From Gammaproteobacteria bacterium (GTDB lineage Bacteria > Pseudomonadota > Gammaproteobacteria > Eutrophobiales > Eutrophobiaceae), in assembly GCA_004297165.1 (NCBI GenBank), contig SCUJ01000011.1:254095-318094 (forward strand): a DNA stretch of 64,000 nt, written 5' to 3'. Below the pieces are notes generated by a model. That model was not told the origin of the DNA and did no database searches. It was given only the letters and a program-made list of their open reading frames with translations. Shown piece after piece: positions 29,009 through 63,000 of the stretch. The translations under genes were made by a program, and so were the position numbers. Each line of letters opens with the position of its first letter. Position 1 is the stretch's first letter.

Positions 29009-29191
29009 TTACAGGCCATCGAGCGGCGATTTCACGCCCCGGGCGCCTCGGTTCAGGACATGGGTGTAGATCATGGTCGTGTTCACATGCGCATGTCCCA
29101 GGAGTTCCTGCACAGTGCGGATGTCATAGCCGTTTTCGAGCAGGTGTGTCGTAAAGGAATGACGGAAGGCAATTGGCTGTCTATACTTCAT
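29009..29191 (-). pseudogene. intI: Integron integrase, C-terminal fragment only
   Basis: The 60-residue reading has [25 protein letters not shown] and [21 protein letters not shown], the C-terminal catalytic part of integron tyrosine recombinases (Arg-His, the LGH His and the nucleophile Tyr are all present). About 80% of the gene is missing. The ATG at 29191 comes from the junction, not the family start. Upstream, after 10 bp, begins a sequence repeated in inverted orientation at 62.7 kb, followed by cassette-type genes on the plus strand, the usual divergent integron layout. Confidence 0.88.
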
Positions 29192-29201
29192 TCTAACCTA
29201 A

Positions 29202-29283
29202 CTCATTGAACAGGGAGGTAAGTCCACATGCCCCACTCCGCCGCCCATATAACATTATCCGACGATGTGTCCTACTATCACTA
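29202..29283 (+). repeat. Integron leader repeat, left copy (possible attI region)
   Basis: CTCATTGAACAGGGAGGTAA (29202-29221), ATAACATTATCCGAC (29249-29263) and TGTCCTACTATCACTA (29268-29283) each recur exactly, in inverted orientation, at 62682-62762 with near-identical spacing. Both copies lie between an integrase fragment and the first cassette gene, so this may be the attI or leader of one integron family. Confidence 0.7.
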
Positions 29284-29286
29284 ATC

Positions 29287-29751
29287 ATGCGTAACCTAGC
29301 TATCGTGTTACTTATTGTAAGCATTGGCGCACTCGCAAATGAGCCTGTTCAAGCGACTTACACCGAGATTTCTCTAACTACTGAACTGCCACTGCCGCAT
29401 GGTATAACACATGTTCATGTAGAGCTTACAGCGAATAGGTCAAGGATCGCGAGATTGAAAATTGCGTCAGAAGCGGCACAGATGACGTACGGCCCAGAGA
29501 ACTTTTTAGAGTTTGAAAAAATTGAACTCAATGATCTATATGTAAGTTATGGCATCACAAGTTTTAAAGAGCCATCCCAGATCCATGGATTCGCGGTCTG
29601 CATCCCGTACGGAGAGTATTATGAAAATGTGGCGTCTAATCCAAGACGGGTACGCCACATCCTCGTAGTGGGTGTCTGGGGGGAAGAGTTCTATGTGAGT
29701 GTGCTCAATGAACCAGGGATGGGGGATAGAAATGGCTGCGGTCATCATTAA
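29287..29751 (+). CDS. Integron cassette gene: exported protein of unknown function
   Basis: This 154-residue protein has an N-terminal signal peptide (MRNLAIVLLIVSIGALANEP). The mature part has no domain I recognise; it looks beta-rich, with GITHVHVELTANRSRIARLK and VRHILVVGVWGEEFYVSV and few Cys. The ATG at 29287 directly follows the shared leader repeat; the frame is open to 29206 upstream. The stop is 7 bp before an attC site. A lone cassette-borne secreted protein of unknown role is typical of chromosomal integrons. Confidence 0.75.
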   Translation: MRNLAIVLLIVSIGALANEPVQATYTEISLTTELPLPHGITHVHVELTANRSRIARLKIASEAAQMTYGPENFLEFEKIELNDLYVSYGITSFKEPSQIHGFAVCIPYGEYYENVASNPRRVRHILVVGVWGEEFYVSVLNEPGMGDRNGCGHH

Positions 29752-29758
29752 TGTTACG

Positions 29759-29815
29759 CATAACCAATCAACCCAGCCGACGCTTAACAGCGCGGCTGGT
29801 TTCCAACGTTATACG
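29759..29815 (+). other. attC recombination site 1 (left array)
   Basis: This 57-bp imperfect palindrome has R'' GCATAAC at 29759-29765 and R' GTTATAC at 29809-29815. Between them lies a stem CAGCCG...CGGCTG with inner CGCT/AGCG around a TAAC loop and a bulged A on one arm, the extrahelical-base pattern of attC sites. The length fits the shortest attC class. Confidence 0.85.
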
Positions 29816-29873
29816 TTGCCCACGATCGATCACATCTGGTGACAAAAGGCACACATAATCGTAGACTTGGCAG

Positions 29874-30167
29874 GTGAAGACGTTTCGCTGGAACCCCGAT
29901 AAGAATGAGTCGCTCAAGGCGACACGAGGTATGTCGTTTGAAAACGTCGTTGTGGCGGTCGAATCGGGTGGTCTACTTGATATCGTGGATCATCCAAACC
30001 AGGCGAGATATCCACGTCAGCAAGTGCTTGTAGTCGCTATCGATAACTACGCCTACTTGGTGCCGTTCGTGGAGGAAGACGATTACTACTTCCTGAAAAC
30101 GGTGATTCCCAGCCGAAAGGCAACCAGGGAGCAAATTAAAACAGGTGAAACAGATAATGAAACTTGA
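29874..30167 (+). CDS. BrnT-type toxin (cassette-borne)
   Basis: This 97-residue protein resembles the BrnT toxin family (RelE-like ribonucleases): FRWNPDKNESLKATRGMSFENVVVAVESGGLLDI, then YPRQQVLVVAIDNYAYLVPFVEED and FLKTVIPSRKAT. It begins with GTG at 29874 and overlaps the partner antitoxin gene by 11 bp. It lies between two attC sites, so the pair forms one integron cassette. Such toxin-antitoxin cassettes are thought to stabilise cassette arrays. Confidence 0.85.
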   Translation: MKTFRWNPDKNESLKATRGMSFENVVVAVESGGLLDIVDHPNQARYPRQQVLVVAIDNYAYLVPFVEEDDYYFLKTVIPSRKATREQIKTGETDNET

Positions 30168-30471
30168 TGCCTACGAACGAAAAGTGTTGGATGCCTATGA
30201 AAAAGGCAAACTCAGGTCTGTCGCTACCAAGAGTGAGCTTGAAAAATTCAAGGCCGCGGCGAGGGCTACCGCTATTAAAGATCGCAGGGTAAACATTCGC
30301 ATGTCGTCTATTGACCTAAGCGATATTCAGGTCAAAGCGCTGCAGGAGGGAATTCCATATCAGACGTTGATAGCCAGCGTGCTTCACAAGTATGTGACTG
30401 GTCGCCTTTCCGAGCCATCGCAACGTATAACAAGTCGCCCAACGCGGACGACCCGTAAGCGGGCAGGTTAG
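30157..30471 (+). CDS. BrnA-type antitoxin with CopG-like region (cassette-borne)
   Basis: This 104-residue protein has YERKVLDAYEKGKLRSV then VNIRMSSIDLSDIQVKALQEGIPYQTLIASVLHKYVTGRL, a ribbon-helix-helix region typical of antitoxins paired with BrnT-type toxins. The ATG at 30157 overlaps the toxin gene end. The last 15 or so codons (SRPTRTTRKRAG) lie inside the attC site, so the tail is attC-encoded and probably not functional. Confidence 0.85.
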   Translation: MKLDAYERKVLDAYEKGKLRSVATKSELEKFKAAARATAIKDRRVNIRMSSIDLSDIQVKALQEGIPYQTLIASVLHKYVTGRLSEPSQRITSRPTRTTRKRAG

Positions 30472-30484
30472 TGCCACGTTACAC
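30425..30484 (+). other. attC recombination site 2 (left array)
   Basis: R'' GTATAAC (30425-30431) and R' GTTACAC (30478-30484) bound 60 bp, with an inner CCCG-TAAG-CGGG hairpin. The outer arms pair 6 of 7. The L boxes pair less well than in attC 1. It overlaps the antitoxin stop codon, as is common in cassettes. Confidence 0.7.
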
Positions 30485-30584
30485 CGACAGCATTGATCGG
30501 CCTCAGCAGTACGCCAGAACGATGCTGCTGGCCAGTGGTACACGCATCTCAAACAGCATAAGCCGAACACGTCGATGGGATGTG

Positions 30585-33287
30585 TCAATGCGCCTCGTCC
30601 CAGTTGGAGCCGAGTCCCGTCTCCACCCGCAACGGCGCCTTGAGCGCGGCGGCGTTTTCCATGTGTTCCCGAATCGCCGCGCGAGCGGCCTCGCACTGAT
30701 CCTCGCGGACCTCGAACACCAGCTCGTCATGCACCTGCATGATCATCTTTATCCCTGAAGCGCTCCGACAGATGGAGTTGTGGATGGCGATCATGGCCTT
30801 CTTGATGATGTCCGCGGCCGTTCCCTGCATGGGCGCGTTGATGGCGGTGCGTTCGGCGTATTGCCGGCGCGCCGGATTCTTCGAATTGATCTCAGGCAGA
30901 TACAGCCGGCGGCGAAACATGGTCTCGACATAGCCCTTGCGTCGCGCGGTCTCCCTGATCTCGTCCATGTAGGCGCGGACCGCGGGAAAACGCGCGAAGT
31001 ATTTTTCGATATAGGCGCCGGCCCGCGTCCGATCCGTGCCCAATTGACGGGCCAGACCGAAGGCCGACATGCCATAGATGAGCCCGAAATTGATCGCCTT
31101 GGCGGCGCGGCGTTGCTCCTGCGTTACGGCGGCGAGGGGGACATCGAAGATCTCGCTCGCGGTGGTGCGGTGGATATCCTCGCCGCTGGCGAAGGCCTGA
31201 AGCATCCCGGCGTCGCCGGAAAGATGCGCCATGATGCGCAGCTCGATCTGGGAATAATCGGCCGCGAGCAGCAGGCAACCTGCGGCGGGGATGAAGGCCT
31301 GGCGGATCCGCCGGCCTTCCTCGGTGCGTACCGGGATGTTTTGCAGGTTGGGATCGGATGAGGACAGACGTCCGGTCGCCGCGACCGCCTGATGGAAGGA
31401 GGCGTGGATCCGTCCCGTCGCGGGGTTGATCTGGGTGGGCAGGCGATCGGCATACGTCGAGCGCAGCTTGCTCATGCCGCGATGAGCGAGTATGACGCGC
31501 GGCAATTCGTATTCCTCGGCCAGATCCTGCAACACGGATTCCGCCGTCGATGGCTGGCCGCCGGGGGTTTTGGATCGCACCGGAAGTTGCATTTCATCGA
31601 ACAGGATCTCCTGAATCTGTTTCGGCGAGCCGATATTGAATTCCCGGCCGGACAGCCGGTAAGCCTGTTGTTCCAGTTCCCGCATCTTATCGCCGAGCTC
31701 ATCGCTTTGGCGGGCCAGCATCTCCGGGTCGATGCGCACGCCGTTACGCTCCATGACATTCAAGACGGGCAGCAACGGCAGTTCGAGGTCGAGGTACAGA
31801 TCCCGCAGGCCGGCGGCCGCGAGCTCCGGCCAGAATTTTTCATGCAGTCGCAGGGTGACATCGGCATCCTCGGCCGAGTAGTGTCCCGCGGTCGCGATCG
31901 GGACCTCGGCGAAGGGGATCTGTTTTACGCCCTTGCCGGCGACCTCCTCGTAGGTTGTCGTCTTCAAGCCGAGATAGCGGTCCGCCAGCGAGTCCATGTC
32001 GTGACGCGTCGCCACGCTGTCCAGGACGTAGGATTCCAGCATGGTGTCGTGCGCGATGCCGTCGAGGGCGATGCCGTGATTGGCGAGGATATGCATGTCG
32101 TACTTGAGATTATGTCCCACCTTTTTAATTTCCGGCGACTCCAGCAAGGGCTTGAGCGTAGTAAGGACCATCTCCAGATCCAATTGTTGCGGGACATCGG
32201 GATACTGGTGCGCTAGCGGGATGTAGGCCGCATGTCCTGGCGTTATGCAGAGGGAGAAACCCACGATCCTGGCCTGCATGTAGTCCAGCGATGTGGTCTC
32301 GGTGTCAATGCTGACGAGGTTCGCCTGCCGCATCCGTTCGCACCAGCCATGGAATTCCTCCTGACTCAGTACCACGCGATAATCGATCGCAATCTCAGGT
32401 GTCGCCGCCGCTGGCGTTGCTGGCGCCGGACCCGCCTGCTGATCCAGACGATTCAACAAGCTGCGCAATCCCCATCTCTGGTAGTGCGCGCGCAAGTCTT
32501 CCGTAGCCGGGGCCTGGCAGATGAGATCGGAAGGTTCAACCGCAAGCGGGACATCCGTCTTCAGGGTGATGAGTTGCCGGGAGAGGGGGAGGAGGGGGAT
32601 GCTGGCGCGGAGATTCTCGCCGACCTTGCCGCCGATGTCGTTCGCATGACGGATGATGGCGTCCAGGTTGCCGTACTGTTCGAGCCATTTCACAGCGGTC
32701 TTCGGTCCCACCTTCGGGACGCCGGGGACATTGTCCGAGGTATCGCCGATGAGCGTCAGATAATCGATGATCAATTCCGGCGGTACGCCGTATTTCTCCT
32801 TTACTCCCACAGGATCGAGCGTCGTCTCGCTCAACGTGTTCACGAGTTTTATGCTGCCGTTGACGATCTGCGCGAGGTCCTTGTCGCCGGTGGAAATGAT
32901 GGTGGCCATCCCGGCGGACTCCGCCCGCCGCGCCAGGGTGGCGATGACATCGTCGGCCTCGACGCCATCGGCGACGATCAGCGGCAGGCCCTGGGCCTTG
33001 AGGATCGCGTGCAGGGGCTCGATCTGGCGGATGAGATCCACTGGCACGGGCGGACGGTGGGCCTTGTACTCAGGGTAGATCGCGGCGCGGAATGTCTTCT
33101 TGCCGGAATCGAAAACCACCGCGAAATAATCGGGTGTATAATCGGCGAGCATTTTGCGCACCATATTGATGACGCCATAGATCGCCCCGGTCGGTTCGCC
33201 CGCGGCGTTGGTGAGATCGCCCATGGCGTGGTAGGCGCGGAAGAGGTAATAGGATCCGTCTACGAGAACCAGTTTTTTTACGGGCAT
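30585..33287 (-). CDS. polA: DNA polymerase I
   Basis: PolA fills gaps and removes RNA primers. The 900-residue product has the 5'-nuclease domain (LVLVDGSYYLFRAYHAM, GDTSDNVPGVPKVG), a 3'-5' exonuclease domain with its first metal motif intact (VSIDTETTSLDYMQ), and the family A polymerase domain with ADYSQIELRIMAHLS (motif A), RRAAKAINFGLIYGMSAFG (motif B) and MQVHDELVFEV (motif C). The start at 33287 (MPVKKLVLVDGSYY) matches the family; a longer in-frame reading would overlap the divergent gene. It ends 100 bp after the last integron attC, convergent with the cassettes. Confidence 0.97.
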   Translation of the reverse strand: MPVKKLVLVDGSYYLFRAYHAMGDLTNAAGEPTGAIYGVINMVRKMLADYTPDYFAVVFDSGKKTFRAAIYPEYKAHRPPVPVDLIRQIEPLHAILKAQGLPLIVADGVEADDVIATLARRAESAGMATIISTGDKDLAQIVNGSIKLVNTLSETTLDPVGVKEKYGVPPELIIDYLTLIGDTSDNVPGVPKVGPKTAVKWLEQYGNLDAIIRHANDIGGKVGENLRASIPLLPLSRQLITLKTDVPLAVEPSDLICQAPATEDLRAHYQRWGLRSLLNRLDQQAGPAPATPAAATPEIAIDYRVVLSQEEFHGWCERMRQANLVSIDTETTSLDYMQARIVGFSLCITPGHAAYIPLAHQYPDVPQQLDLEMVLTTLKPLLESPEIKKVGHNLKYDMHILANHGIALDGIAHDTMLESYVLDSVATRHDMDSLADRYLGLKTTTYEEVAGKGVKQIPFAEVPIATAGHYSAEDADVTLRLHEKFWPELAAAGLRDLYLDLELPLLPVLNVMERNGVRIDPEMLARQSDELGDKMRELEQQAYRLSGREFNIGSPKQIQEILFDEMQLPVRSKTPGGQPSTAESVLQDLAEEYELPRVILAHRGMSKLRSTYADRLPTQINPATGRIHASFHQAVAATGRLSSSDPNLQNIPVRTEEGRRIRQAFIPAAGCLLLAADYSQIELRIMAHLSGDAGMLQAFASGEDIHRTTASEIFDVPLAAVTQEQRRAAKAINFGLIYGMSAFGLARQLGTDRTRAGAYIEKYFARFPAVRAYMDEIRETARRKGYVETMFRRRLYLPEINSKNPARRQYAERTAINAPMQGTAADIIKKAMIAIHNSICRSASGIKMIMQVHDELVFEVREDQCEAARAAIREHMENAAALKAPLRVETGLGSNWDEAH

Positions 33288-33315
33288 GCTGCGTCGCCGG
33301 CGCCAACCAGAGTGA

Positions 33316-34041
33316 ATGCACATTATGAAGGAAAAGAACGGCACTTCCCAATACATGATCGACGATTCCGATCTGAGCCACGAATCCTGGCGCATCTTTC
33401 AGATCATGGCGGAATTCGTGGAAGGATTTCAGAAACTCGCCCATGCCAAACCTTCCGTGAGCATGTTCGGTTCCGCCCGTTTCGGGCAGGATCATCACCT
33501 GTATCAGAAGGGTGAACGGATCGCGCGGCTGCTGTCGGACGCCGGCTTCAATATTGTATCCGGCGGCGGACCGGGGATGATGGAGGCCTTCAACAAGGGC
33601 GCGTACGCCGGCAAGTCCTACAGCATCGGGCTCAACATCCAGTTGCCGCACGAACAGGTCACCAATCATTACCAGGATATTTCGCTTTTTTTCCGCCATT
33701 TTTTTTCGCGCAAGGTCATGTTTGTGAAATACGCCTCCGCCTATGTCGTGATGCCGGGCGGTTTTGGCACACTGGACGAAATGGCGGAGATCCTGACCCT
33801 GATCCAGACCGGCAAATCCCGGCGGATCCCGATCGTGCTCGTCGAGTCCCGCTTCTGGGATGGGCTCGTGAACTGGTTCAAGGAGACCATGGTTCGGGAA
33901 CAGACCATCAATCCCGATGACCTTGATCTGTTTCATGTTGTGGATACGCCGGAGGAGGTCCTGGATGTCATCTTCAAGCATTACAGCAGCACCAGTCTGG
34001 AGCCATCGAGGCAGGAAAGGGAGCGGCAGCTCGATTTATAG
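33316..34041 (+). CDS. LOG family (TIGR00730-like) Rossmann-fold protein
   Basis: This 241-residue protein has the LOG/lysine-decarboxylase-like motifs VSGGGPGMMEAFNKGAY and VVMPGGFGTLDEMAEIL. Family members hydrolyse nucleoside monophosphates such as cytokinin ribotides, but this bacterial subfamily of larger proteins is not well defined. It is divergent from polA (28-bp gap) and followed by DUF2782. Start 33316 or 33325. Confidence 0.85.
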   Translation: MHIMKEKNGTSQYMIDDSDLSHESWRIFQIMAEFVEGFQKLAHAKPSVSMFGSARFGQDHHLYQKGERIARLLSDAGFNIVSGGGPGMMEAFNKGAYAGKSYSIGLNIQLPHEQVTNHYQDISLFFRHFFSRKVMFVKYASAYVVMPGGFGTLDEMAEILTLIQTGKSRRIPIVLVESRFWDGLVNWFKETMVREQTINPDDLDLFHVVDTPEEVLDVIFKHYSSTSLEPSRQERERQLDL

Positions 34042-34104
34042 GCCATTGCAGATATTCAGCGAGGCGGTCACTATAATCTCTATTACAGACCCAGGAATGC
34101 CAAC

Positions 34105-34443
34105 ATGAAACGTCGAATGACCCTAGCGTTGCTCAGTCTCTTCATTATCTTCGCCGCCACCGCGCAGGAAGAGGAATTCGCGGACGCGCCGGAGCCGCCC
34201 GACTTGCCGGATCCGGTGGTGAGCGGGCAGCCCATCGAACCGGAGATCACCATCATTCGCAAGGAAAAGGAAACGATTCAGGAGTACCGGTTGAACGGCC
34301 GGTTGTACATGGTCAAGATTACGCCGGTCGTGGGCAAGCCTTACTATCTCATGGACCGGAATGGCGATGGCACGATGGAATACCGGATCATGGAGGATTA
34401 CGAGCGGGAGAGGGTCCCGCAATGGGTCCTGTTCAGTTGGTAG
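34105..34443 (+). CDS. DUF2782 domain-containing exported protein
   Basis: This 112-residue protein has a signal peptide (MKRRMTLALLSLFIIFAATAQ), a proline-rich acidic linker, and the DUF2782 domain with PEITIIRKEKETIQEYRLNGRLYMVKITPVVGKPYYLMDRNGDG. Function unknown. Homologues commonly lie next to polA, as here. Confidence 0.88.
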   Translation: MKRRMTLALLSLFIIFAATAQEEEFADAPEPPDLPDPVVSGQPIEPEITIIRKEKETIQEYRLNGRLYMVKITPVVGKPYYLMDRNGDGTMEYRIMEDYERERVPQWVLFSW

Positions 34444-34466
34444 TCGGATTTAACCGATAACAAAAC

Positions 34467-34736
34467 TTATTCGGCCTCCCCGAAACGGTTCAGGATGAGC
34501 CGTTCGATCTCCTCCATGGCGGCCAGTTCATCCTTGCCCGCGGCGCTGATTTGGACGACGGAATCCTTTGCGGCGGCGAGCATCATCACCCCCATGATGC
34601 TTTTCCCGTTCACGGTCCTGCCGTTCTTGCTGATGTGGATGTCGCAATTGTAACGGGAGGCGGTCTGCACAAAACGCGCCGCAGCCCTGGCATGCATGCC
34701 GAGCTTGTTGATGATGGTGATGGTTCTGGACTGCAT
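34467..34736 (-). CDS. Phosphocarrier protein HPr (Npr-like)
   Basis: This 89-residue HPr has the phosphorylated-His region KLGMHARAAARFVQ (His 15) and the regulatory-Ser region NGKSIMGVMMLAAAK. With HPr kinase upstream, Ser phosphorylation is expected. It is the last gene of rpoN-hpf-hprK-rapZ-hpr, 4 bp after rapZ. No enzyme I or EIIA gene lies here, so its partners must be elsewhere. Confidence 0.93.
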   Translation of the reverse strand: MQSRTITIINKLGMHARAAARFVQTASRYNCDIHISKNGRTVNGKSIMGVMMLAAAKDSVVQISAAGKDELAAMEEIERLILNRFGEAE

Positions 34737-34740
34737 CTGC

Positions 34741-35619
34741 TTATAGATCCCGGTGTCTGATGACGACCTGCTTTCCCGCCCTGGAGAAGTGCGCCGCCAA
34801 TTGTTCGCTGATATAAACCGAGCGATGATGGCCACCGGTGCATCCGACCGCCACGCAGAGATAACTGCGGTTCTCCGCCTCGAACAGCGGCAGCCATCTG
34901 CCCAGGTAAGCCAGGATATCCCCCAGCATCTGCAGGACGGCCGGCTGGCGTTCCAGAAATTCGATGACGCAGCGGTCCTTGCCCGTAAAGGGTCGGAGTT
35001 GTTTTTCCCAGTGTGGATTGGGCAGGCAGCGCACATCGAAGACGTAATCGGCGTCCGTGGGGATGCCGTGTTTGTAGCCGAAGGACAGGAACTGCAGGGA
35101 CAGGCTGCCGGCCGGCCGGTTGGTCACGCGGACCCGGACGATGTCGCGCAGTTCATGCACCGTGGTGTTGCTGGTGTCCAGACGCAGGTCGGCCAATTCC
35201 GAGAGCGGCTCAAGCAACTCGCGTTCCCGATCCAGGGCGTCGGTGAGTGAAACGGTCGCGGAACTCAAGGGATGTTTGCGCCGGGTCTCGCTGAAACGCG
35301 AGGTCAGGATGTTCTTGTCGGCCTGGAGAAAGATCAGTTCCGCCGGCAGGCCCTGTGACTTCAATTTTCCGATCAACGCGGGCAGTTCGCGCAAATCGCT
35401 GTCAGGATTGCGCGCATCGATGCCGATTCCCACCTTGTTCGGAAACTTGCCCGCTTCTTGGGCGAGCAGTCCGCTCAGATTTTCCAGGAGCGCCACGGGG
35501 AGATTGTCGATGCAATAAAAGCCCTGGTCCTCGAGCGTGTTCAGCACCAGCGATTTGCCGGCGCCCGAGAGCCCGCTCACGATGACCAGCTTCCGGTTTT
35601 CCGCCGCCTCAGCCGCCAC
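34741..35619 (-). CDS. rapZ: RNase adapter protein RapZ
   Basis: RapZ (YvcJ family) binds nucleotides and in E. coli controls GlmS through small RNA turnover. The 292-residue product has Walker A SGLSGAGKS (about 17-25), FYCIDNLPVALL, and the C-terminal domain FSYG-like LSFGYKHGIPTDADYVFDVRCLPNPHW and VGCTGGHHRSVYI. The GTG at 35619 overlaps the hprK stop by 11 bp; a longer reading would run deep into hprK. Confidence 0.94.
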   Translation of the reverse strand: MAAEAAENRKLVIVSGLSGAGKSLVLNTLEDQGFYCIDNLPVALLENLSGLLAQEAGKFPNKVGIGIDARNPDSDLRELPALIGKLKSQGLPAELIFLQADKNILTSRFSETRRKHPLSSATVSLTDALDRERELLEPLSELADLRLDTSNTTVHELRDIVRVRVTNRPAGSLSLQFLSFGYKHGIPTDADYVFDVRCLPNPHWEKQLRPFTGKDRCVIEFLERQPAVLQMLGDILAYLGRWLPLFEAENRSYLCVAVGCTGGHHRSVYISEQLAAHFSRAGKQVVIRHRDL

Positions 35620-36640
35620 CGCTCTGCTCGATTTGTTGTTGCTGGCCCTTGATGAATTCTTCCGCCGCGTTATAGCCTTCCAGCCGGAGGGCGTGATTCC
35701 GCGCCGCGCATTCCGTGAGGATGGCGAGGTTGCGCCCCGGCGCGACCGGGATGGTGATCTCCGGGATCTCCACATCGAGTATCTTCACGGGGCGATAGCT
35801 GCCTTCCAGTCGGTCGATGGTGATGATCTTCTGGCGATCGAGCGGCGCCAGACGCACGATCAGGCGGAGATATTTGTTGCCCTTGATCGCGGCGCCGCCG
35901 TACAAACGCCGGATGTTGATGACCCCGAGCCCCCGCACTTCAAGAAAATCCCGCAGTGAATCGGGGCAGGACCCGTTCAGGATATCCGGGGCGATCCGCG
36001 AGAATTGCGGGGCATCGTCCGCTATGAGCCGGTGGCCCCGGGAGATCAACTCCAGGGCCAGTTCGCTCTTGCCGATCCCGGACGGGCCGGTGATCAGCAC
36101 GCCAATGGCCATGACCTCCATGTAGACGCCGTGCAGGGTGATGACGTCGGCAAACAGGGTGCTGAGGTAATAATGCAACGACTCCGAGAGCTTGCCGCTC
36201 GAGAGCGGCGAGGCGAACAGGGGGACATTTTCTTCATTGCATTTGCGCCGCAGGTAGGTGGGGGCGAGCCGGTCGTCAGCGACGATCAAACAGGCCGGAT
36301 TGTGCTTGAAGACCTGTTTGATCGTGTCGTGCCGGGTGATGTCGCGCAACCCCTCCAGATAATCCATCTCCATCCGGCCGAGGATCTCGACCTGGTTCGG
36401 GTGGACCAGATTCAGATAACCGACCAGGGACTTGCCGGTCGGGGTTCCTTCATCTCCAGCCGGCCCCTGCTTGCCAGCCTTGGCATTTTCGTCGACAGTC
36501 GCGTTGGCGGCCTGCGGCTTGAGTTCCGGGTAGATGAGATTACCCCCGCCCTCCACGCCGGCGGCCCAGGACAGACCGAGCCGGTTCCCGTGTTTCTTGA
36601 ACAGATCGGCGACGGAGATCTGGCTCTGATATTCGGTCAT
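35609..36640 (-). CDS. hprK: HPr kinase/phosphorylase
   Basis: HprK phosphorylates and dephosphorylates HPr on a Ser. The 343-residue protein has Walker A GPSGIGKS (185-192), LIADDAPQFSRIAPD, and the signature EVRGLGVINIRRLYG. An unusual segment rich in Gly, Ala and Thr (about 43-70, ANATVDENAKAGKQGPAGDE) lengthens the N-terminal domain. It lies between hpf and rapZ. The EIIA-Ntr gene ptsN, commonly found between hpf and hprK, is missing. Confidence 0.95.
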   Translation of the reverse strand: MTEYQSQISVADLFKKHGNRLGLSWAAGVEGGGNLIYPELKPQAANATVDENAKAGKQGPAGDEGTPTGKSLVGYLNLVHPNQVEILGRMEMDYLEGLRDITRHDTIKQVFKHNPACLIVADDRLAPTYLRRKCNEENVPLFASPLSSGKLSESLHYYLSTLFADVITLHGVYMEVMAIGVLITGPSGIGKSELALELISRGHRLIADDAPQFSRIAPDILNGSCPDSLRDFLEVRGLGVINIRRLYGGAAIKGNKYLRLIVRLAPLDRQKIITIDRLEGSYRPVKILDVEIPEITIPVAPGRNLAILTECAARNHALRLEGYNAAEEFIKGQQQQIEQSGGG

Positions 36641-54665: not shown

Positions 54666-54678
54666 AACGAGCCCCGAA

Positions 54679-55599: not shown

Positions 55600-56654
55600 C
55601 CGAAGTTGATCTTGGCTTCCAGGTTGGTGCGGGAGTCGGCGTTGTTCAGCGCCTCCTCCAGCTCGATGCGGCCTTCGTGATAGAGATCGTAGAGGGCCAT
55701 GTCGAAGGTCTGCATGCCGCGCTGGCCGCTTTCCTGCATGGCCACCTTGATCTCGTCAATGTCCCCTTTCAGGATCAATTCGCCGATGTGCGGGGTGTTG
55801 ATCAAGATCTCGATCGCGGCGCAGCGTTTGCCGTCAACGCCGGTAACCAGGCGTTGGGAAATCACCGAACGGAGGTTGAGGGAGAGATCCATGAAAAGCT
55901 GTTTGTGCATGTCCTGCGGGAACAGGTTAATGACCCGCTCCATCGCCTGGTTGGAGTTATTCGCGTGCAGTGTGGAGACCGCGAGATGGCCGGTGTTGGA
56001 GAGCTCGAGCGCCGCCTCCATGGTTTCCCGATCCCTTATCTCGCCGATCAGGATCACGTCCGGGGCCTCGCGCAACGATGACTTCAGGGCGTTCCTGTAG
56101 GAGAGTGTGTCCACGCCCACCTCCCGCTGGTTGACGATCGATTTCTTGTTCGGATGACTGAATTCGACCGGGTCTTCGATGGTGAGGATGTGGCCGGCCA
56201 TGGTCTCGTTGCGGTGATTGAGCATCGCCGCCAACGTGGTGGATTTTCCGGAACCCGTGGCCCCGACCATGAGGATCAGGCCGCGCTTGTGATTGATAAG
56301 CTCGGACAGGATCGGCGGCAGACCAAGTTGCTCCAGCGTGGGGATGATGCTGGGGATCAAACGCAGCACCATGCCGACCTCGCCGCGCTGTCGGAAGACA
56401 TTGACGCGGAAGCGCGCCGCCCCGTCGGGCAGGCTGATGGCGAAATCGCATTCCAGATTTTCCTCGAAGCGCTTTTTCTGGAAATCGTTCATCACCCCAT
56501 AGGCCGCAGCCTTGCAGAGCTCGCTGGTAAGCACGGTCTTGCCCACCGGCGCGGCCTTGCCTTCAAGCTTGATCTTGACCGGAGTGCCGACCGTGAAAAA
56601 TAGATCCGAGGCCTTCTTCTCGACCATCAGTTTGAGATAAGGAAAAATATCCAT
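55596..56654 (-). CDS. PilT/PilU family type IV pilus ATPase (third paralogue, PilU-like)
   Basis: This 352-residue ATPase has Walker A GATGSGKST (about 131-139), the Asp box (LTIEDPVEF), Walker B-type EIRDRET and the His box STLHANNSNQ. It begins MDIFPYLKLMVEKKASDLFFTVG like PilU. It lies 57 bp after the longer pilU gene on the same strand. Residues needed for ATPase activity are all present. Its role beside PilT and PilU is unknown. Confidence 0.88.
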   Translation of the reverse strand: MDIFPYLKLMVEKKASDLFFTVGTPVKIKLEGKAAPVGKTVLTSELCKAAAYGVMNDFQKKRFEENLECDFAISLPDGAARFRVNVFRQRGEVGMVLRLIPSIIPTLEQLGLPPILSELINHKRGLILMVGATGSGKSTTLAAMLNHRNETMAGHILTIEDPVEFSHPNKKSIVNQREVGVDTLSYRNALKSSLREAPDVILIGEIRDRETMEAALELSNTGHLAVSTLHANNSNQAMERVINLFPQDMHKQLFMDLSLNLRSVISQRLVTGVDGKRCAAIEILINTPHIGELILKGDIDEIKVAMQESGQRGMQTFDMALYDLYHEGRIELEEALNNADSRTNLEAKINFG

Positions 56655-56711
56655 GCGCTATGGGTTCCTGACAGTGAATGACGGGTTGGAGAGTACTGTA
56701 CCGGCCGGGGA

Positions 56712-57884
56712 TCAGCGCATCATCATGCCCTTGTTCTTTTCTTCGTCCTCGTGCAGGCTGAGGTGATCCAGTCCTTCGAGCTTGTCGGAGGCCTTGGCGG
56801 CCTTGCCCTCCAGCTTGATCCGCAACCGCAGCTCGTTCACCGAGTCGGCGTTGCGCAGGGCGTCCTCGTAGGTGATGAGATCCGCCTCGTAGAGATCGAA
56901 CAGGGCTTGATCGAAGGTCTTCATGCCGAGTTCGTTCGATTTCTTCATCAGGGACTTGATTTCATGGATCTCGCCTTTGAGGATGAGATCCGACATCAAG
57001 GGGGTGTTGAGCAGGATCTCAATCGCCGCCACGCGCCCTTTGCCGTCCGTTTTTTTCAACAGGCGCTGCGAGATGACCGCCTTGAGGTTGAGCGAAAGGT
57101 CCATGAGGAGTTGGGCCCGGCGCTCTTCGGGGAAAAAGTTGATGATGCGGTCCATGGCCTGGTTGGAGCTGTTCGCATGGAGCGTCGCCATCGCGAGGTG
57201 TCCGGTCTCGGCGAAGGCGATGCCGAATTCCATGGTCTCGCGGGTACGGATCTCCCCCAACAGGATCACGTCCGGGGCCTGGCGCAGGGTGTTTTTCAGC
57301 GCAATGTCCCAGTCGTCGGTATCCACGCCTACTTCCCGTTGCATGATGATGCAGTTCTTGTGCGGGTGTACGTATTCGATGGGGTCTTCAATGGTGATGA
57401 TATGGCCGTGGGAATTCTCGTTGCGATAATTGATCATCGCCGCGAGCGAGGTGGATTTCCCCGAACCGGTGCCGCCCACCATGATGACCAGCCCGTTCTT
57501 GGTCATCACCACTTCCTTCAGGATCTCCGGCAGCCCCAGTTTGTCGATGGTGGGGACGTCGGTCTCGATGGTGCGGCAGACCAGGCCGCAGTTGCCCTGC
57601 TGGATGAAGGCGTTGGCGCGGAAGCGGCCGATCCCCTTCGGTGCTATGGCGAAGTTGCATTCCTTGGTGGCCTCATACTCCTTCAATTGCTTGTCGTTCA
57701 TGACCGCGTAGACCATCGCCTTGGTGTTGTCCGGAGTGAGGGCGGTCTTGGAGACCGGTGTGACCTTGCCGTCGACCTTGATGGCGGGCGGGAAACCGAC
57801 GGTTACAAATAGATCCGAGCCCTTCTTCTCGATCATCATCTTGAGAAGGTCGCGCATGAGTTTTATGCCCTGTTCTCGTTCCAC
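56712..57884 (-). CDS. pilU: Twitching motility ATPase PilU
   Basis: PilU assists PilT in pilus retraction. The 390-residue product has MRDLLKMMIEKKGSDLFVTVGFPP, Walker A GGTGSGKST, IIMQREVGVDTDDWDIALKNTLRQAPDVILLGEIRTRETM and the PilU-typical C-terminal tail (DKLEGLDHLSLHEDEEKNKGMMMR). The GTG at 57884 is backed by GGAGG 7 bp upstream. It follows pilT by 30 bp. Confidence 0.95.
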   Translation of the reverse strand: MEREQGIKLMRDLLKMMIEKKGSDLFVTVGFPPAIKVDGKVTPVSKTALTPDNTKAMVYAVMNDKQLKEYEATKECNFAIAPKGIGRFRANAFIQQGNCGLVCRTIETDVPTIDKLGLPEILKEVVMTKNGLVIMVGGTGSGKSTSLAAMINYRNENSHGHIITIEDPIEYVHPHKNCIIMQREVGVDTDDWDIALKNTLRQAPDVILLGEIRTRETMEFGIAFAETGHLAMATLHANSSNQAMDRIINFFPEERRAQLLMDLSLNLKAVISQRLLKKTDGKGRVAAIEILLNTPLMSDLILKGEIHEIKSLMKKSNELGMKTFDQALFDLYEADLITYEDALRNADSVNELRLRIKLEGKAAKASDKLEGLDHLSLHEDEEKNKGMMMR

Positions 57885-57914
57885 GATACGCCTCCGCTAT
57901 GATCTGTGAGTCAA

Positions 57915-58949
57915 TCAGAAACTGTCTTTGTTGGCCGCCTTGCTGCGGGCCTGGTCCTTGTCGACAATGCCCTTGTTCACCAGCTCGTGCAGATTCTGAT
58001 CCAGGGTCTGCATGCCGTATTGCTGGCCGGTCTGGATCGCGGAATACATCTGCGCAATCTTGTTCTCCCGGATCAGGTTGCGGATGGCCGGCGTGCCGAT
58101 CATGATCTCATGGGCCGCCGCCCGCCCGCCGCCCTTTTTCTTGAGCAGGGTTTGCGAGATGACCGCGCGCAGCGATTCGGACAGCATGGCGCGGATCATG
58201 TCCTTCTCCGCCGCCGGAAATACGTCGACGATGCGGTCGATGGTCTTGGCGGCGGAACTGGTGTGCAGGGTGCCGAATACCAGGTGACCTGTTTCCGCGG
58301 CGGAGAGCGCAAGGCGGATGGTCTCCAGGTCGCGCATTTCGCCGACCAGGATAACGTCCGGGTCCTCGCGCAACGCGGAACGCAAGGCCTCGTTGAATCC
58401 GAGGGTGTCGCGGTGAACCTCGCGCTGGTTGATCAGGCATTTTTTGCTTTCATGCACGAACTCGATGGGGTCCTCCACCGTCAGGATATGACCGTATTCC
58501 GTTTCATTTTTATGGTTGACCATGGCGGCCAGCGTCGTGGATTTGCCGGAACCGGTCGGGCCGGTGACCAGCACCACGCCGCGTGGATAGTCCGAGATCT
58601 GTTCGAAGATCTTGGGGGCCTTGAGTTGTTCGAGCGACAGGATCGTGGAGGGAATGGTCCTGAAGACGGCAAACGCCCCGCGGTTCTGGTTGGCGGCATT
58701 GACCCGAAAGCGCGCCAGATTCGGCACGGGAAAGGAAAAGTCGCACTCGAGGAATTCCTCGTAGTCCTTGCGCTGCTTGTCGTTCATGATGTCATACACC
58801 ATGTCGTGGACTTCCTTGTGGTCCAGCGGTGGCACGTTGATGCGGCGGACATCGCCGTCGACCCGGATCATCGGCGGCAGGCCGGCCGACAAATGCAGAT
58901 CCGATGCGCCGTTCTTGACGCTGAAAGCCAGTAATTCACCGATATCCAT
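57915..58949 (-). CDS. pilT: Type IV pilus retraction ATPase PilT
   Basis: PilT depolymerises pili. The 344-residue product has IGELLAFSVKNGASDLHLSAGLPP, Walker A GPTGSGKST, the Asp box LTVEDPIEFVHE, GEMRDLETI and HTSSAAKTIDRIVDVF. GGAGG stands 7 bp before the ATG at 58949. It is divergent from yggS, as in Pseudomonas. Confidence 0.97.
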   Translation of the reverse strand: MDIGELLAFSVKNGASDLHLSAGLPPMIRVDGDVRRINVPPLDHKEVHDMVYDIMNDKQRKDYEEFLECDFSFPVPNLARFRVNAANQNRGAFAVFRTIPSTILSLEQLKAPKIFEQISDYPRGVVLVTGPTGSGKSTTLAAMVNHKNETEYGHILTVEDPIEFVHESKKCLINQREVHRDTLGFNEALRSALREDPDVILVGEMRDLETIRLALSAAETGHLVFGTLHTSSAAKTIDRIVDVFPAAEKDMIRAMLSESLRAVISQTLLKKKGGGRAAAHEIMIGTPAIRNLIRENKIAQMYSAIQTGQQYGMQTLDQNLHELVNKGIVDKDQARSKAANKDSF

Positions 58950-59120
58950 CAATAACCTCCCGAATCGATAGTCATGGCGATGCGCGATTAATAGTATAAC
59001 GTATCCACGCCGCATAGATTCAGGCTAGGAGGCGCGGAAGCTAATCCTCTTTATTTACCGAGGATATACACTTACGGCACAATGTTACTGACTTTTTGAA
59101 GTATAGACCACTGCCAGTTC

Positions 59121-59819
59121 ATGAAGACCATCGCGCTGCGCCTCAAGTCCCTGCGGGATAGGATCCTTGACGCCGAAAGACTCCACGGGCGGCCGCCGGG
59201 GTCGGTGGCCTTGCTGGCGGTCAGCAAGACCCGGAGCGCGGAGGAGATCAGGGCGGCGCGCGCTGCGGGACAACTCCGTTTCGGGGAAAATTACCTGCAA
59301 GAGGCCATGGTCAAGATGGATACCCTGGCGGATCTCGATTTGGAATGGCATTTCATCGGCCCGATCCAGTCCAACAAGACCCGCGAGATCGCGGCCCGGT
59401 TTGCCTGGGTGCATTCCGTAGACCGGCTGAAGATCGCACAGCGCCTCTCCGCTACCCGTCCGCCCGAACTCCCGCCCTTGAATGTCTGCATCCAGGTGAA
59501 TATCGGTGATGAGTCGAGCAAATCGGGCATAAACCTGGCGCAGCTTCCGGAACTTGCCCAGGAGATCGGCAGGTTGCCCCGTCTCAAGCTCCGCGGGCTG
59601 ATGACCATGCCCAGATTGACCGAGGATCAGGCTGAACAACGCCGGCAGTTCCGAGATCTGCGCGAGGGATACGATCGCCTGAAGGCGGTGGGGAATTCCC
59701 TGGATACACTCTCCATGGGCACCAGCGCGGACCTGGAAGCGGCGATCGCCGAAGGCGCTACTATCGTGCGCGTCGGGACCGATGTCTTTGGCGAGCGAGG
59801 CGCTGACCGGCTCGCCTGA
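59121..59819 (+). CDS. yggS: YggS family pyridoxal-phosphate homeostasis protein
   Basis: The 232-residue PLP-binding protein has VALLAVSKTRSAEEIR (PLP Lys), RFGENYLQEAMVKM, WHFIGPIQSNK and LSMGTSADLEAAIAEGATIVRVG. It buffers PLP and influences amino-acid pools. It begins yggS-proC-yggT-yggU. Confidence 0.96.
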   Translation: MKTIALRLKSLRDRILDAERLHGRPPGSVALLAVSKTRSAEEIRAARAAGQLRFGENYLQEAMVKMDTLADLDLEWHFIGPIQSNKTREIAARFAWVHSVDRLKIAQRLSATRPPELPPLNVCIQVNIGDESSKSGINLAQLPELAQEIGRLPRLKLRGLMTMPRLTEDQAEQRRQFRDLREGYDRLKAVGNSLDTLSMGTSADLEAAIAEGATIVRVGTDVFGERGADRLA

Positions 59820-59882
59820 TCTTGAGATAGGTTCTACAATAGCCCCACAATCAAACGGGCGACGCGAGAGAGAAAGATCGGA

Positions 59883-60716
59883 ATGAAAGACCTGAACCTC
59901 TGTTTCATCGGATGCGGCAACATGGGGCGGAGCCTGATCGGCGGCCTGCTCGCCGACGGCTATCGCGCGGACCGCCTGTGCGGGATCGACCCTAACCCCC
60001 AGCAGCGGGAGATCACCCAGGGCAGATTCGGCATCGAGGTCTATGAGGACAACCCTGGAATCGTCAATCAGGCGGATATCCTGGTGCTGGCTGTCAAACC
60101 GCAACAGATGCGGGCGATGCTGACAAGTCTGGCGACCGCGATGAATCGCGCCCGCGCCCCGCTGGTGATCTCGGTGGCCGCGGGGATCCGGATCGCGACG
60201 ATCGAGCGGTGGCTCGGACACGATCTGGCGGTGGTCAGGGCGATGCCCAACACCCCGGCCATCATCCGCACCGGGATCACGGGCCTCTACGCCAACCAGC
60301 GCGCCACTCCCGAACATCGCCAGCAGGCCGAGTCGCTCCTGCGATCCGTTGGGGCGGTGGTCTGGGTCGGGATGGAGGAACATCTCGATATCGTCACCGC
60401 CTTGTCCGGCAGCGGGCCGGCCTACTTTTTTCTGCTGATGGAGCTGCTTGAACGCGCCGCGGTGGAACAGGGCCTGCCGGCGGAGCAGGCCCGGTTGTTG
60501 ACTGTGGAAACGGCGCTCGGTGCGGCCAGGATGGTAATGGAATCCAGCCACACCGCCGCCACGCTCCGGCAACAGGTGACCTCGCCCGGCGGCACGACCG
60601 AGGCGGCAATCCAGGTGTTGACCCAGGGCGGGATCGAACAACTGGTCCGCCAGGCCCTCGTCGCAGCCAGGAATCGATCCGTCGAACTGGCGGACCGGTT
60701 CGGTAGCGACGCGTGA
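59883..60716 (+). CDS. proC: Pyrroline-5-carboxylate reductase
   Basis: ProC makes proline. The 277-residue product has the NAD(P) site LCFIGCGNMGRSLIGGLL, VVRAMPNTPAIIRTGITGLYAN, LSGSGPAYFFLLMELL and TSPGGTTEAAIQVL. It overlaps yggT by 4 bp. Confidence 0.97.
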   Translation: MKDLNLCFIGCGNMGRSLIGGLLADGYRADRLCGIDPNPQQREITQGRFGIEVYEDNPGIVNQADILVLAVKPQQMRAMLTSLATAMNRARAPLVISVAAGIRIATIERWLGHDLAVVRAMPNTPAIIRTGITGLYANQRATPEHRQQAESLLRSVGAVVWVGMEEHLDIVTALSGSGPAYFFLLMELLERAAVEQGLPAEQARLLTVETALGAARMVMESSHTAATLRQQVTSPGGTTEAAIQVLTQGGIEQLVRQALVAARNRSVELADRFGSDA

Positions 60717-61300
60717 GCGGGGGTTATCTCTCCGAGGCCGGGATGTTTCTGGTCAGCACGGTATTCGACCTCTACATCCTGGTCGTCGCCCTGCGTTTCC
60801 TGTTGCAGCTCGTCAGGGCGGACTTTTATAACCCCATCTCCCAGTTCATCGTCACCCTGACGAATCCGCCGTTGCGCTACCTGCGGCGCTGGATCCCCGG
60901 CTACGCCGGGGTCGATTGGGCCTGCCTCCTCCTCCTGTTTGGCGTGCAGATCCTGGAATTGACGCTGATCAGTCTCATCGGCGGGCAGATGCCCTCCATC
61001 TTGGGGCTCCTCGTGCTCAGCCTCGCGAGTCTGGTGCGTCTGGGCATCTACATCATGATGTTCGCGATCATCGTCCAGGTTATCATCTCCTGGGTCGCGC
61101 CCGGGGCCTACAACCCATTGACGGTGCTGCTCTACCGGCTGACCGATTTCATCCTGCGGCCGGCGCGGCGGCTCCTGCCGCCGGTGAGTGGCGTGGATTT
61201 CTCCCCATGGCTGGTGTTGGTCGCGCTGCAACTGGGGATCATCCTCATCGTGAAACCGCTGTTGCGTTTGGGTTATATCCTCTCCGGGTATGTCATCTAA
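60713..61300 (+). CDS. yggT: YggT family membrane protein
   Basis: This 195-residue protein has two YGGT repeats, each with two membrane segments: FDLYILVVALRFLLQLVRADFYNPISQFIVTLTNPPLRYLRR and IMMFAIIVQVIISWVAPGAYNPLTVLLYRLTDFILRPARRLLPPVSGVDFSP. YggT proteins are linked to cation or osmotic stress. Start overlaps proC by 4 bp. Confidence 0.93.
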   Translation: MSGGYLSEAGMFLVSTVFDLYILVVALRFLLQLVRADFYNPISQFIVTLTNPPLRYLRRWIPGYAGVDWACLLLLFGVQILELTLISLIGGQMPSILGLLVLSLASLVRLGIYIMMFAIIVQVIISWVAPGAYNPLTVLLYRLTDFILRPARRLLPPVSGVDFSPWLVLVALQLGIILIVKPLLRLGYILSGYVI

Positions 61301-61601
61301 CGAGGATTTGAACAACAAAGGGTGGTTCCGGAGCGAGCGTGACACCCTGTACCTCTCGATTCAAATACAGACCCGGGCCGGCAAGGACGAAATCGCGGGG
61401 ATCCGCAACGGCCGGCTGCTGATCCGAATCAAGACCCCGCCCGTGGATAGCAAGGCCAATCTGCGGCTGCTGGAATTTCTCGCGGAGCGGCTCCATGTGC
61501 CACGCTCGCGCCTCAAGATCGTCCAGGGCGAACACAACCGTTACAAGGTCGTGGCGGTGAGTGAATGCGGAATCATCGATCCCGGAGTTGTCCTGCTTTA
61601 G
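61290..61601 (+). CDS. yggU: DUF167 family protein YggU
   Basis: This 103-residue protein contains LSIQIQTRAGKDEIAGIRNGRLLIRIKTPPVDSKANLRLLEFLAERL and ends RYKVVAVSE, the DUF167 family, whose function is unknown. It overlaps yggT by 11 bp. In related genomes metX and metW usually follow; here an integron remnant does. Confidence 0.93.
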   Translation: MSSNEDLNNKGWFRSERDTLYLSIQIQTRAGKDEIAGIRNGRLLIRIKTPPVDSKANLRLLEFLAERLHVPRSRLKIVQGEHNRYKVVAVSECGIIDPGVVLL

Positions 61602-61763
61602 GCGTTAAGGTGAGTCATATCGGACTGACTTTTTCCGTACTTGCCTCATTCTTAGGATCTGATCCAGGCGAAGATCAGTAGTTCCGGACTTTTTCTTCAG
61701 GCTTAGCGTTTGATGTGTTCGGCGCGAGCAGCGAAGCTTCGAAGCGTCCCGACGAGCGGCTGG

Positions 61764-61976
61764 TTATGCGGCAATTTCAATGTAGGAAGAGCGACTGGTA
61801 GGGTTCGGGATTTCATACCCCTCTTCTTTCAACCCGTCCAGATGGAAGGAAATAGCCTCACGCATACTCTGCTCGGTTTCTTCGATGGTATTTCCAGTGG
61901 ATACACAGCCAGGCAAATCCGGGGAATAGGCAGAGTAGCCGGTTTTGGATTTTTCAATAACGATAAGGTATTTCAT
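61764..61976 (-). CDS. hicB: HicB family antitoxin (cassette-borne)
   Basis: This 70-residue protein has MKYLIVIEKSKTGYSAYSPDLPGCVSTGNTIEETEQSMREAISFHLDGL, the partially degraded RNase H fold of HicB antitoxins. It lacks a separate C-terminal DNA-binding domain, as in short HicB forms. It overlaps hicA by one base. Its stop lies in GCATAAC, an attC R''-like box (61763-61769, minus strand); a matching R' box is not clear. Confidence 0.93.
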   Translation of the reverse strand: MKYLIVIEKSKTGYSAYSPDLPGCVSTGNTIEETEQSMREAISFHLDGLKEEGYEIPNPTSRSSYIEIAA

Positions 61977-62161
61977 TATTTGAGCCCTGCCTGTTTCAGG
62001 ATACTGTTCATTGTAGCCGGTGCTAGGTCATCTTTCATCTTCCCAGGGATGGTCACCAGACCCCTTTTGACAGGATGCTTGTATTGCCGGTGACTACCTC
62101 TGGTTCGGGCCAGGAACCAACCGTCATTTTCTACCAGCTTAATGGCGTCCCTGACGTTCAA
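61976..62161 (-). CDS. hicA: HicA family toxin (cassette-borne)
   Basis: This 61-residue protein has the HicA double-stranded-RNA-binding-like fold with GWFLARTRGSHRQYKHP (catalytic His 24) and LVTIPGKMKDDLAPATMNSILKQAG. HicA cleaves mRNA until bound by HicB. It begins 33 bp after attC 62194-62254. Confidence 0.93.
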   Translation of the reverse strand: MNVRDAIKLVENDGWFLARTRGSHRQYKHPVKRGLVTIPGKMKDDLAPATMNSILKQAGLK

Positions 62162-62193
62162 TGGTAATTCCTTAGAGGTTCATTTTATTTGCC

Positions 62194-62254
62194 GCATAAC
62201 GCCAGCTTCACGCGCGGCGGCTTTTTGCTGTCGCCGTGAAAGCAGATGTTATGT
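62194..62254 (-). other. attC recombination site (right array)
   Basis: On the minus strand R'' ACATAAC (62248-62254) and R' GTTATGC (62194-62200) bound 61 bp. The arms GCTTTCACG and CGTGAAGC pair with one unpaired T, the extrahelical base expected of attC. The preceding cassette gene's stop codon lies inside R''. Confidence 0.8.
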
Positions 62255-62638
62255 TTCCTTTGGTAGTCTAAGTTGTTTTCTGATAGCACCCTCTACCTTA
62301 TGCGCTTGCTCGTATTCAGTGGTATTGGAAAATCCAATAAGATGCTTAGCTGCTTCTTCTGGGTGATACCCTTTGAACTTTTTCAAATAGGCCAAATACC
62401 ATATTGGCAAGTCCTGTATTGCAGCCGTAAGTTGAGAAGATGTTCGTCTGTTTGCAAGACTACGTTCACGATGCAGTGACTTCATTTCGTCATTTAACTT
62501 TTCTGAATTTATAACTTGAGCATAATAAATAAAATCAATCAGTACTTGATTCCGAAGATCTCGAAATCTCAGGATCGGTTGCATATTAAAGGTCGTGAAC
62601 CAGTAACTAAAGGCACCAGCTACAAGGCCAATTAACAA
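62249..62638 (-). CDS. Integron cassette gene: small membrane-anchored protein of unknown function
   Basis: The 129-residue reading starts with TTG and has one N-terminal membrane helix (MLIGLVAGAFSYWFT) and a charged helical domain (DEMKSLHRERSLANRRTSSQ, EEAAKHLIGFSNTTEYEQAHK). The frame stays open upstream to about 62675 without an ATG. An ATG at 62678, directly after the shared leader, is in another frame, so a one-base frameshift may have broken the gene. No known family recognised. It ends within attC. Confidence 0.65.
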   Translation of the reverse strand: MLIGLVAGAFSYWFTTFNMQPILRFRDLRNQVLIDFIYYAQVINSEKLNDEMKSLHRERSLANRRTSSQLTAAIQDLPIWYLAYLKKFKGYHPEEAAKHLIGFSNTTEYEQAHKVEGAIRKQLRLPKET

Positions 62639-62681
62639 TGATAAAAGCCCAATGTCCGTTATTTTCCTCCAGAAACATAAC

Positions 62682-62762
62682 TAGTGATAGTAGGACAGTT
62701 TGTCGGATAATGTTATTGAGCGTCTGAACGGGACATCATTAATTACCTCCCTGTTCAATGAG
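62682..62762 (-). repeat. Integron leader repeat, right copy (possible attI region)
   Basis: This is the inverted counterpart of 29202-29283, with three exact blocks of 20, 15 and 16 bp in the same order and near-equal spacing. It sits between the integrase N-terminal fragment and the first minus-strand cassette. Confidence 0.7.
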
Positions 62763-62848
62763 ATAGGATTAAAAAGGATTATAGTCAGCCGTTATCAGGG
62801 GTGTCTATATTCCTGTTTTTAATATCCTTAGATAGAGGATGCGCCTAT

Positions 62849-63000
62849 ATTGATAACCACCGCAACCCTCGTCTTCTCGATCAAGTCCGTACACGCATCC
62901 GTTATCTGCATTATTCGCAGAAAACCGAGAAATCCTATGTTTAAATACAATCGTATTTTTTTGTACAAGGAAGTGCTGCATCAGGACTTGAGAGAATTCC
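62849..63000 (+). pseudogene. intI: Integron integrase, N-terminal fragment only
   Basis: In the frame from 62849 the plus strand reads IDNHRNPRLLDQVRTRIRYLHYSQKTEKSYV, closely matching integron integrase N-termini (IRxxHYSxRTExaYV). The usual start ATG appears changed to ATT, and a stop follows at 62942. In the next frame YNRIFLYKEVLHQDL (62946-62990) matches the later FLY..VL..DL segment of the same protein, so an internal part is deleted. The orientation, divergent from the minus-strand cassettes, is that of an integron. Confidence 0.8.

Follow-up and report, generated by a model that had tools for sequence, protein, structure and literature searches.

How two fragments of an integron integrase came to face each other across 33 kb of chromosome is the question raised by the window analysed here, a stretch of 64,000 nt from a Gammaproteobacteria bacterium (GCA_004297165.1, contig SCUJ01000011.1, positions 254,095-318,094 of the forward strand). 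The usual description of an integron gives each platform a single integrase, a single attI and a single array. A first-pass annotation of the window interpreted the two remnants, at 29.0 kb (locus A) and 62.8 kb (locus D), as the result of duplication or rearrangement of one integron, with reciprocal loss of the integrase, around a core segment able to invert. Comparison with related genomes supports a different reading, to which a probability of roughly 0.8 is assigned: A and D belong to a set of about 30 fossil copies of a single family-specific integron platform, whose integrase was lost and whose captured genes were frozen in place. The genome holding the window is designated G000 and its relatives G001, G019 and so on; C followed by a number denotes a contig of the named genome.

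The two loci have in common a leader in inverted orientation, which had been put at 80 bp and is confirmed over 116 bp at 79.3% identity; the E value of about 1e-21 excludes chance. The leader is also present at C5:220.8 kb and C2:533.8 kb. Alignment of leader copies defines a platform of about 145 bp, composed of a promoter (TGGACA, an 18-nt spacer and TATACT), a strong Shine-Dalgarno sequence (AAGGAGG), an ATG, an open reading frame (ORF) of about 18 codons and attI. The near-consensus sigma-70 boxes would form a putative Pc promoter, the -35 box of which is lost at A. The leader ORF peptide reads MPHSAAHITLSDDVSYYH at A and MSSYTSKYFSRTKCPLIPS in another copy, and in the better-kept copies the ORF stops on CTAG^TT. 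An arrangement resembling ORF-11 of class 1 integrons, with a Shine-Dalgarno sequence and a stop at the core, is found at A, at two further copies named B and C, and at others (8 of 28 pass a strict test); at D, the ORF stops after 8 codons, short of the core.

Homology between the copies ends at, or a few bases from, the G^TT crossover, and different genes follow. In the relatives G019 and G029, the leader separates an intact integrase (IntI) from the first cassette, and its core falls on the cassette junction. In G012 it also lies beside an intact IntI, but the match is weaker (E 6e-6) and CTAG lies a few bases away from the junction with the cassette. Because the leader occupies the attI position of intact integrons and its homology ends at the crossover, it is identified, by position and homology, as the attI region of this integron clade. 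A cassette common to both loci, which the first-pass annotation had named as the alternative to attI, is rejected, since the leader adjoins intact intI.

A sequence-only model of the platform (R1), trained on 13 leaders, five of them from G000 with D included, matches 35 places in G000 at E <=1 and 32 at E <=0.01. Inspection covered 28 of the 35 places, with 27 of those 28 taken into a comparison of flanking sequence; the other seven are C6:699, C13:1001733, C12:53999, C11:217672, C12:75407, C13:116028 and C12:74629. Across genomes, R1 matches 25 of 49 from the family, G000 included, compared with 1 of 28 outside it, and the platform is therefore, as judged by this model, nearly confined to one bacterial family. 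Only a single place was found in 400 kb of other loci, and it was an already listed copy, while among 100 integrase loci (G019 and G029 left out) only that of G012 was matched. Eighteen of the 26 genomes with platforms have no integrase above the cut-off, although several of the assemblies are incomplete. In two places in G000, L219 (C13:1007639-1009288) and L220 (C2:448281-450160), three platform matches follow one another at intervals of about 0.6-0.9 kb that contain small ORFs.

At locus A, an insertion lies between hisA and polA (28978-30584). Its edges can be placed only approximately, the gap in same-genus G001 aligning up to 28977 and again from about 30585. The integrase remnant (29009-29176, minus strand) covers about codons 261-315 and results from an internal deletion; the 60-aa ORF that contains it (29009-29191, minus strand) matches TIGR02249 positions 261-315 (E 2.7e-27), is 92% identical over 50 aa to the IntI of G012, and has matches at at least 80 loci in many phyla. 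Platform A (29175-29289, plus strand, with cassettes oriented likewise; R1 match C5:283266-283379) comprises attI and the leader without the -35 half of the promoter, and is 79% identical to D over 116 bp and 95.5% identical to copy C over 112 bp. Its Shine-Dalgarno sequence and 18-codon leader ORF (29212-29284, plus strand) end in a stop at a mutated attI core at 29281. The first cassette ORF (29287-29751, plus strand) encodes 154 aa of no known family and is followed by an attC site (29759-29811, plus strand; 47.8 bits, E 5.6e-9). The second cassette (29874-30471, plus strand) encodes a BrnT-like toxin and a CopG/BrnA-like antitoxin (PF04365, 2.6e-7; PF12441, 2.1e-4; both under the Pfam gathering score) and also has an attC site (30426-30481, plus strand; 43.7 bits, E 6.2e-8).

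Locus D reads in the opposite direction. An integrase N-terminal remnant of about 30 codons (62849-62944, plus strand) is recognizable over 62849-62941 by PRK15417 (E 2.5e-6), more weakly by TIGR02249 (E 0.034), and by 82.6% identity over 23 aa (E 8e-7) to the intact IntI of G029. Platform D (62676-62819, minus strand; R1 match C5:316772-316913, 90.3 bits) has a Pc-like promoter (-35 TAGACA, 18-nt spacer, -10 TATAAT), a Shine-Dalgarno sequence, the broken leader ORF and the attI core CTAG^TTATG. The first cassette ORF (62249-62638, minus strand; 129 aa, no family) is followed by an attC site (62197-62253, minus strand; 39.3 bits, E 8.6e-7), and a HicA toxin and HicB-like antitoxin (61764-62161, minus strand; PF07927, 3.8e-21; PF15919, 6.4e-14) come next, with no attC match behind them. 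As initially observed, the cassettes at both loci point away from the integrase piece. On the other side of the N-terminal remnant, the integrase stop codon and its 3' flank survive (63009-63089, plus strand); this stretch matches copy B at 70 of 81 bp and ends in 34 bp of a dispersed repeat. This half-palindrome, CGTAGGGTGGGCACG (63056-63089), has 60 matches in the genome at <=2 mismatches, 26 forward and 34 reverse, compared with 4 and 6 for the motif read backward, and it also adjoins platform copies B and C.

The integrase fragments at A and D are homologous to each other and had been described as opposite ends of the protein, a C-terminus only at 29.0 kb and an N-terminus only at 62.85 kb. 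Both termini are indeed there. However, D retains the stop codon and 3' flank as well, and in A the leader is joined without a gap to codon ~261; the two are therefore internal deletions and not opposite ends. Copy B (C5:220.6-221.0 kb) retains an N-terminal piece together with codons 267-315. A, B and D are three different internal deletions of intI, each having lost the middle of the gene at a different place, which does not agree with reciprocal loss. The integrase-side flank of B resembles a partly deleted integron in G001, and B is therefore probably the old home site of the integron. No intact integron integrase above the TIGR02249 cut-off was detected in the whole G000 genome, and what A and D carry are fragments only. 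Neither fragment encodes a working integrase, in keeping with the first-pass view that neither remnant can move cassettes alone, and the G000 platforms are inactive for lack of the enzyme. A further integron-integrase N-terminal remnant is found outside the window at C5:231143-231262 on the minus strand (TIGR02249 1-40, E 1e-4); it is 1.9 kb from the platform at C5:229134, is not in an attI arrangement with it, and is probably a second integrase lineage.

A search of 2.5 kb upstream of each inspected G000 copy (1.2 kb at D) detected intI remnants at three of the 28, namely A, B and D. The relatives present a similar picture: among 36 distinct copies examined, out of 66 R1 matches listed for relatives, three are beside an intact integrase, two beside a partial one, and 31 have no detected intI, some of these having little upstream DNA (198 to 2600 nt was available 5' of the copies; downstream DNA is under 110 nt for three, and five copies match only in part). 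Within the 28 G000 copies, the -35 box (<=1 mismatch) is kept in 24, the -10 box in 26 and the Shine-Dalgarno sequence in 20, and the attI palindrome (<=2 mismatches) and the attI core are each found in 13. Conservation begins sharply about 10 nt upstream of the -35 box; beyond this edge the sequence is unrelated in most copies, with a longer upstream stretch common to four. We read this pattern as selection that would maintain expression from the captured gene as attI and the integrase decay; a similar picture would be expected of a discrete mobile unit.

Gene order around both loci is conserved. The hisA and polA genes are adjacent in all 11 of the relatives compared at A (polA is matched in 45 genomes, G000 among them), and in G001 the gap between them is about 110 bp, carries no insert and can be aligned with the sequence flanking insertion A on either side. 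At D, pilT-yggS-proC genes neighbour DUF4426 in six of eight relatives compared, the exceptions being G016 and G007 (DUF4426 is matched in 29 genomes, G000 among them). A and D therefore each arose as a separate insertion into a conserved gap. This collinearity leads us to reject both inversion and rearrangement of the 33-kb segment, and the longest run of identity between the two leaders, 20 bp, is judged a poor substrate for inversion. The two copies do face each other across the segment, as first noted, but they are merely two of many.

Ectopic insertions can also be followed in G019. One platform there is followed by an attC-ended cassette and another ORF, and the whole is bordered by dispersed repeats. 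The congener G039 lacks this insertion, its flanks being separated by 74 bp, and the corresponding gap measures about 0.14-0.4 kb in G079, G048 and G078. A second ectopic platform, on C1, has no attC match and retains a short 5' piece of intI; no clean empty site was found for this locus (C1:323327). Similarity between platforms was compared for copies of >=110 nt only (19 of 28 from G000 and 31 of 36 from relatives). The nearest platform is in the same genome for 31 of the 50 (16 of 19 in G000 and 15 of 31 in relatives), whereas shuffling gave a mean of 8.1 and a maximum of 18. Both ectopic G019 platforms that were compared are closest to the home attI. This distribution implies, at the level of sequence similarity, that platform copies spread within genomes; on these comparisons, the platforms are additions to existing gaps, and they resemble those of their own lineage.

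The attC sites were detected with a covariance model (R2) built from 14 sites, including all three in the window, which replaced two earlier scanners, the first too strict and the second giving some known sites low scores. Core-gene control loci totalling 360 kb gave no R2 match. From relatives, 36 sources yielded 36 rows representing 33 distinct sites, 11 of them from the training set, and all are on the strand of the platform. When 28 of the 31 intI-less copies in relatives were searched (all but L198, L211 and L213), 11 had a downstream attC at E <=0.0011 and four more had one at E 0.13-0.36. Genomes with attC behind an intI-less platform include G007, G008, G026, G039, G031, G023 and G019; the matches at L247, L257, L199 and L203 (E 3e-7 to 1e-3) and the four weak ones, at L249, L244, L256 and L201, come from outside the training set. 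In G007, C3 has a row of ten (six at E <0.001, four weaker) and others are on C7 and C16. The row on C3 (L243, C3:404000-410522) lies behind an attI platform in a genome without an integron integrase above the cut-off. Within G000, attC sites are found downstream of five of the 28 copies, with strong matches at A (two) and D (one) and weak ones at L222, L221 and L236 (E 0.004-0.19).

The genes beside the platforms are varied. Among 18 adjacent ORFs scanned, seven have no family, and the matches of others include Shedu, a type I restriction subunit, a C5 methylase, a Schlafen/AlbA_2 protein, an SDH-type protease, a cyclase-like YHS protein, a glyoxalase and an addiction-module antitoxin; PADLOC supports the Shedu, type I restriction and methylase assignments.

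From this arrangement we infer a history in which a resident integron integrase would have inserted promoterless cassettes at G^TT. The platform promoter would have driven transcription of the captured gene, on which ribosomes could have re-initiated after finishing the leader ORF, as is reported for ORF-11 of attI1. Platform copies would have spread within the lineage, and the integrase genes would then have decayed by separate deletions, freeing the upstream DNA for loss up to the -35 box and freezing each platform with its captured gene. Many platforms may still switch on the gene once captured.

Several observations count against this history. No attC was detected downstream of 23 of the 28 G000 copies, so for most of them it is the platform itself that marks the adjacent gene as a cassette. 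The type I restriction subunit, at 998 aa, is large for a cassette. Some of the 13 core matches, A's among them, are chance placements, and the better preservation of the promoter than of attI may be partly an effect of how R1 finds copies. The sharp edge at -35 also fits a discrete mobile unit instead of deletion. In the G019 congeners G043, G035, G004, G080 and G077, the gap that holds the ectopic G019 insertion is 0.9-3.9 kb long with other content.

The strongest competing account is that complete integrons of the same clade were acquired independently at each locus by horizontal transfer and later lost their integrase to decay, with no copying within the genome. The differing intI deletions at A, B and D, which suggest that the gene was probably full length on arrival, the occurrence of the A-D platform type in another genus (G014) and the intI 5' piece at the G019 C1 copy all agree with it; however, it leaves unexplained why platforms resemble others of their own genome far more often than under shuffling, and why 25 of the 28 G000 copies, and 31 of the 36 from relatives, show no intI piece. 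We consider it possible but doubtful. Movement of the platform as a small unit resembling a miniature inverted-repeat transposable element (MITE), carried by flanking dispersed repeats and not by integrase chemistry, is unlikely. It draws on the sharp left edge, on the intI-side ends of D and B, which lie within the repeat with 60 genome matches, and on the repeats bordering the G019 insertion, both of which also occur about 1 kb apart on G019 C9. Set against these are the unrelated upstream sequence of most G000 copies, the different repeats at different copies and the fact that no target duplication was identified.

A generic promoter or MITE repeat, lying beside integrons by chance and distinct from attI, is a very improbable identity for the leader. 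Most G000 copies do lack both an attC match and intI, and the G012 leader is offset from its cassette junction, but chance would have to produce the attI position at intact integrons, the core on the junction in G019 and G029, near-confinement to one family, and ectopic copies in relatives followed by attC on the same strand. The least credible of the alternatives is the original one, duplication or rearrangement of one integron leaving inverted copies around an invertible segment: the leaders are homologous and inverted, and three of the four closest leader copies are within 96 kb on one contig, yet gene order at both junctions is that of relatives, A is absent from G001, 26 further copies were inspected, and no long identity joins the pair. 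For the preferred reading, fossil copies of one platform, candidate copying routes are integrase action at non-standard sites, repeat-borne movement and repeated gain of whole integrons.

A bolder form of that reading, held only tentatively, is a distributed integron, in which one integrase serves or served many copied attI-promoter-leader platforms in trans, each capturing and expressing its own cassette and, once the integrase was lost, persisting as one of dozens of domesticated promoters. Defence and toxin-antitoxin functions would then be represented among the captured genes. A living case would be G019, which has one intact integrase and a platform with cassettes 37 kb away; this genome also has a platform without a detectable cassette on another contig than the intact integrase.

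The wider multi-copy pattern is of more interest than the pair in the window. Here attI is multi-copy, mostly without an integrase, and comes with a promoter and leader ORF of its own; such platforms would be missed by survey tools that seek IntI and clustered attC. If the pattern is general, single integron-captured genes, defence genes included, would be hidden across chromosomes, with the platform sequence as a handle for finding them. The platforms also provide a system in which the copying of an attI site can be tested.

Two features of complete integrons are seen in this system, attI beside intI (by homology to relatives) and attC-ended cassettes (at A and D). The closest parallel is with the degenerate sedentary chromosomal integrons of Xanthomonas, which are likewise chromosomal, with the integrase progressively lost and the cassettes frozen; integrase-less cassette clusters occur at other loci in ~50% of genomes, with seven such loci in well-sampled species (PMC12444791). 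However, those ectopic loci are attC clusters, whereas the repeated part here is the attI-promoter-leader unit, with about 30 copies in a single genome. In IntegronFinder 2.0, a CALIN (cluster of attC sites lacking integron integrases) is defined by attC sites, two by default, with the integrase absent, and attI sites outside class 1, which are poorly described, are not detected (PMC9024848). Locus A, with two attC sites and no integrase, would qualify, and D has one; most G000 loci, with attI and none or one detected attC, would escape. The leader ORF resembles ORF-11 of attI1 in class 1 integrons, a short ORF inside attI with its own Shine-Dalgarno sequence and a stop at the core site, which is reported to raise translation of the first cassette; it differs in sequence, in its length of ~18 codons and in a stop that comes mainly from attI (CTAG^TT) and not from the cassette (PMC8876359). 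Delta-attI-type cassettes similarly have attI pieces copied beside them, but these are fragments, mostly of 14-18 nt, downstream of the cassette in mobile arrays, whereas here a whole promoter-attI platform stands upstream of the gene at dispersed chromosomal loci, an arrangement outside the Delta-attI definition (PMC12901181). There is also a likeness to attG insertions, in which cassettes occupy non-standard chromosomal sites (cited in PMC12901181 and PMC12444791). An attG insertion made by IntI would have its edges at attC G^TT and a genomic GWT, and comparison with G001 places those of A only approximately. No report of dispersed integrase-less attI platforms was found in the accessible portions of the open-licence PMC literature searched.

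Elsewhere in the window, no Rfam family was found at gathering scores. The G+C content is about 42% over 13000-16000, compared with roughly 46-60% around it, which may indicate an acquired segment. Three diverged direct copies (64-73%) of a 157-nt stretch lie at 55918-58372, within neighbouring minus-strand ORFs that we take to be pilT/pilU-type genes.

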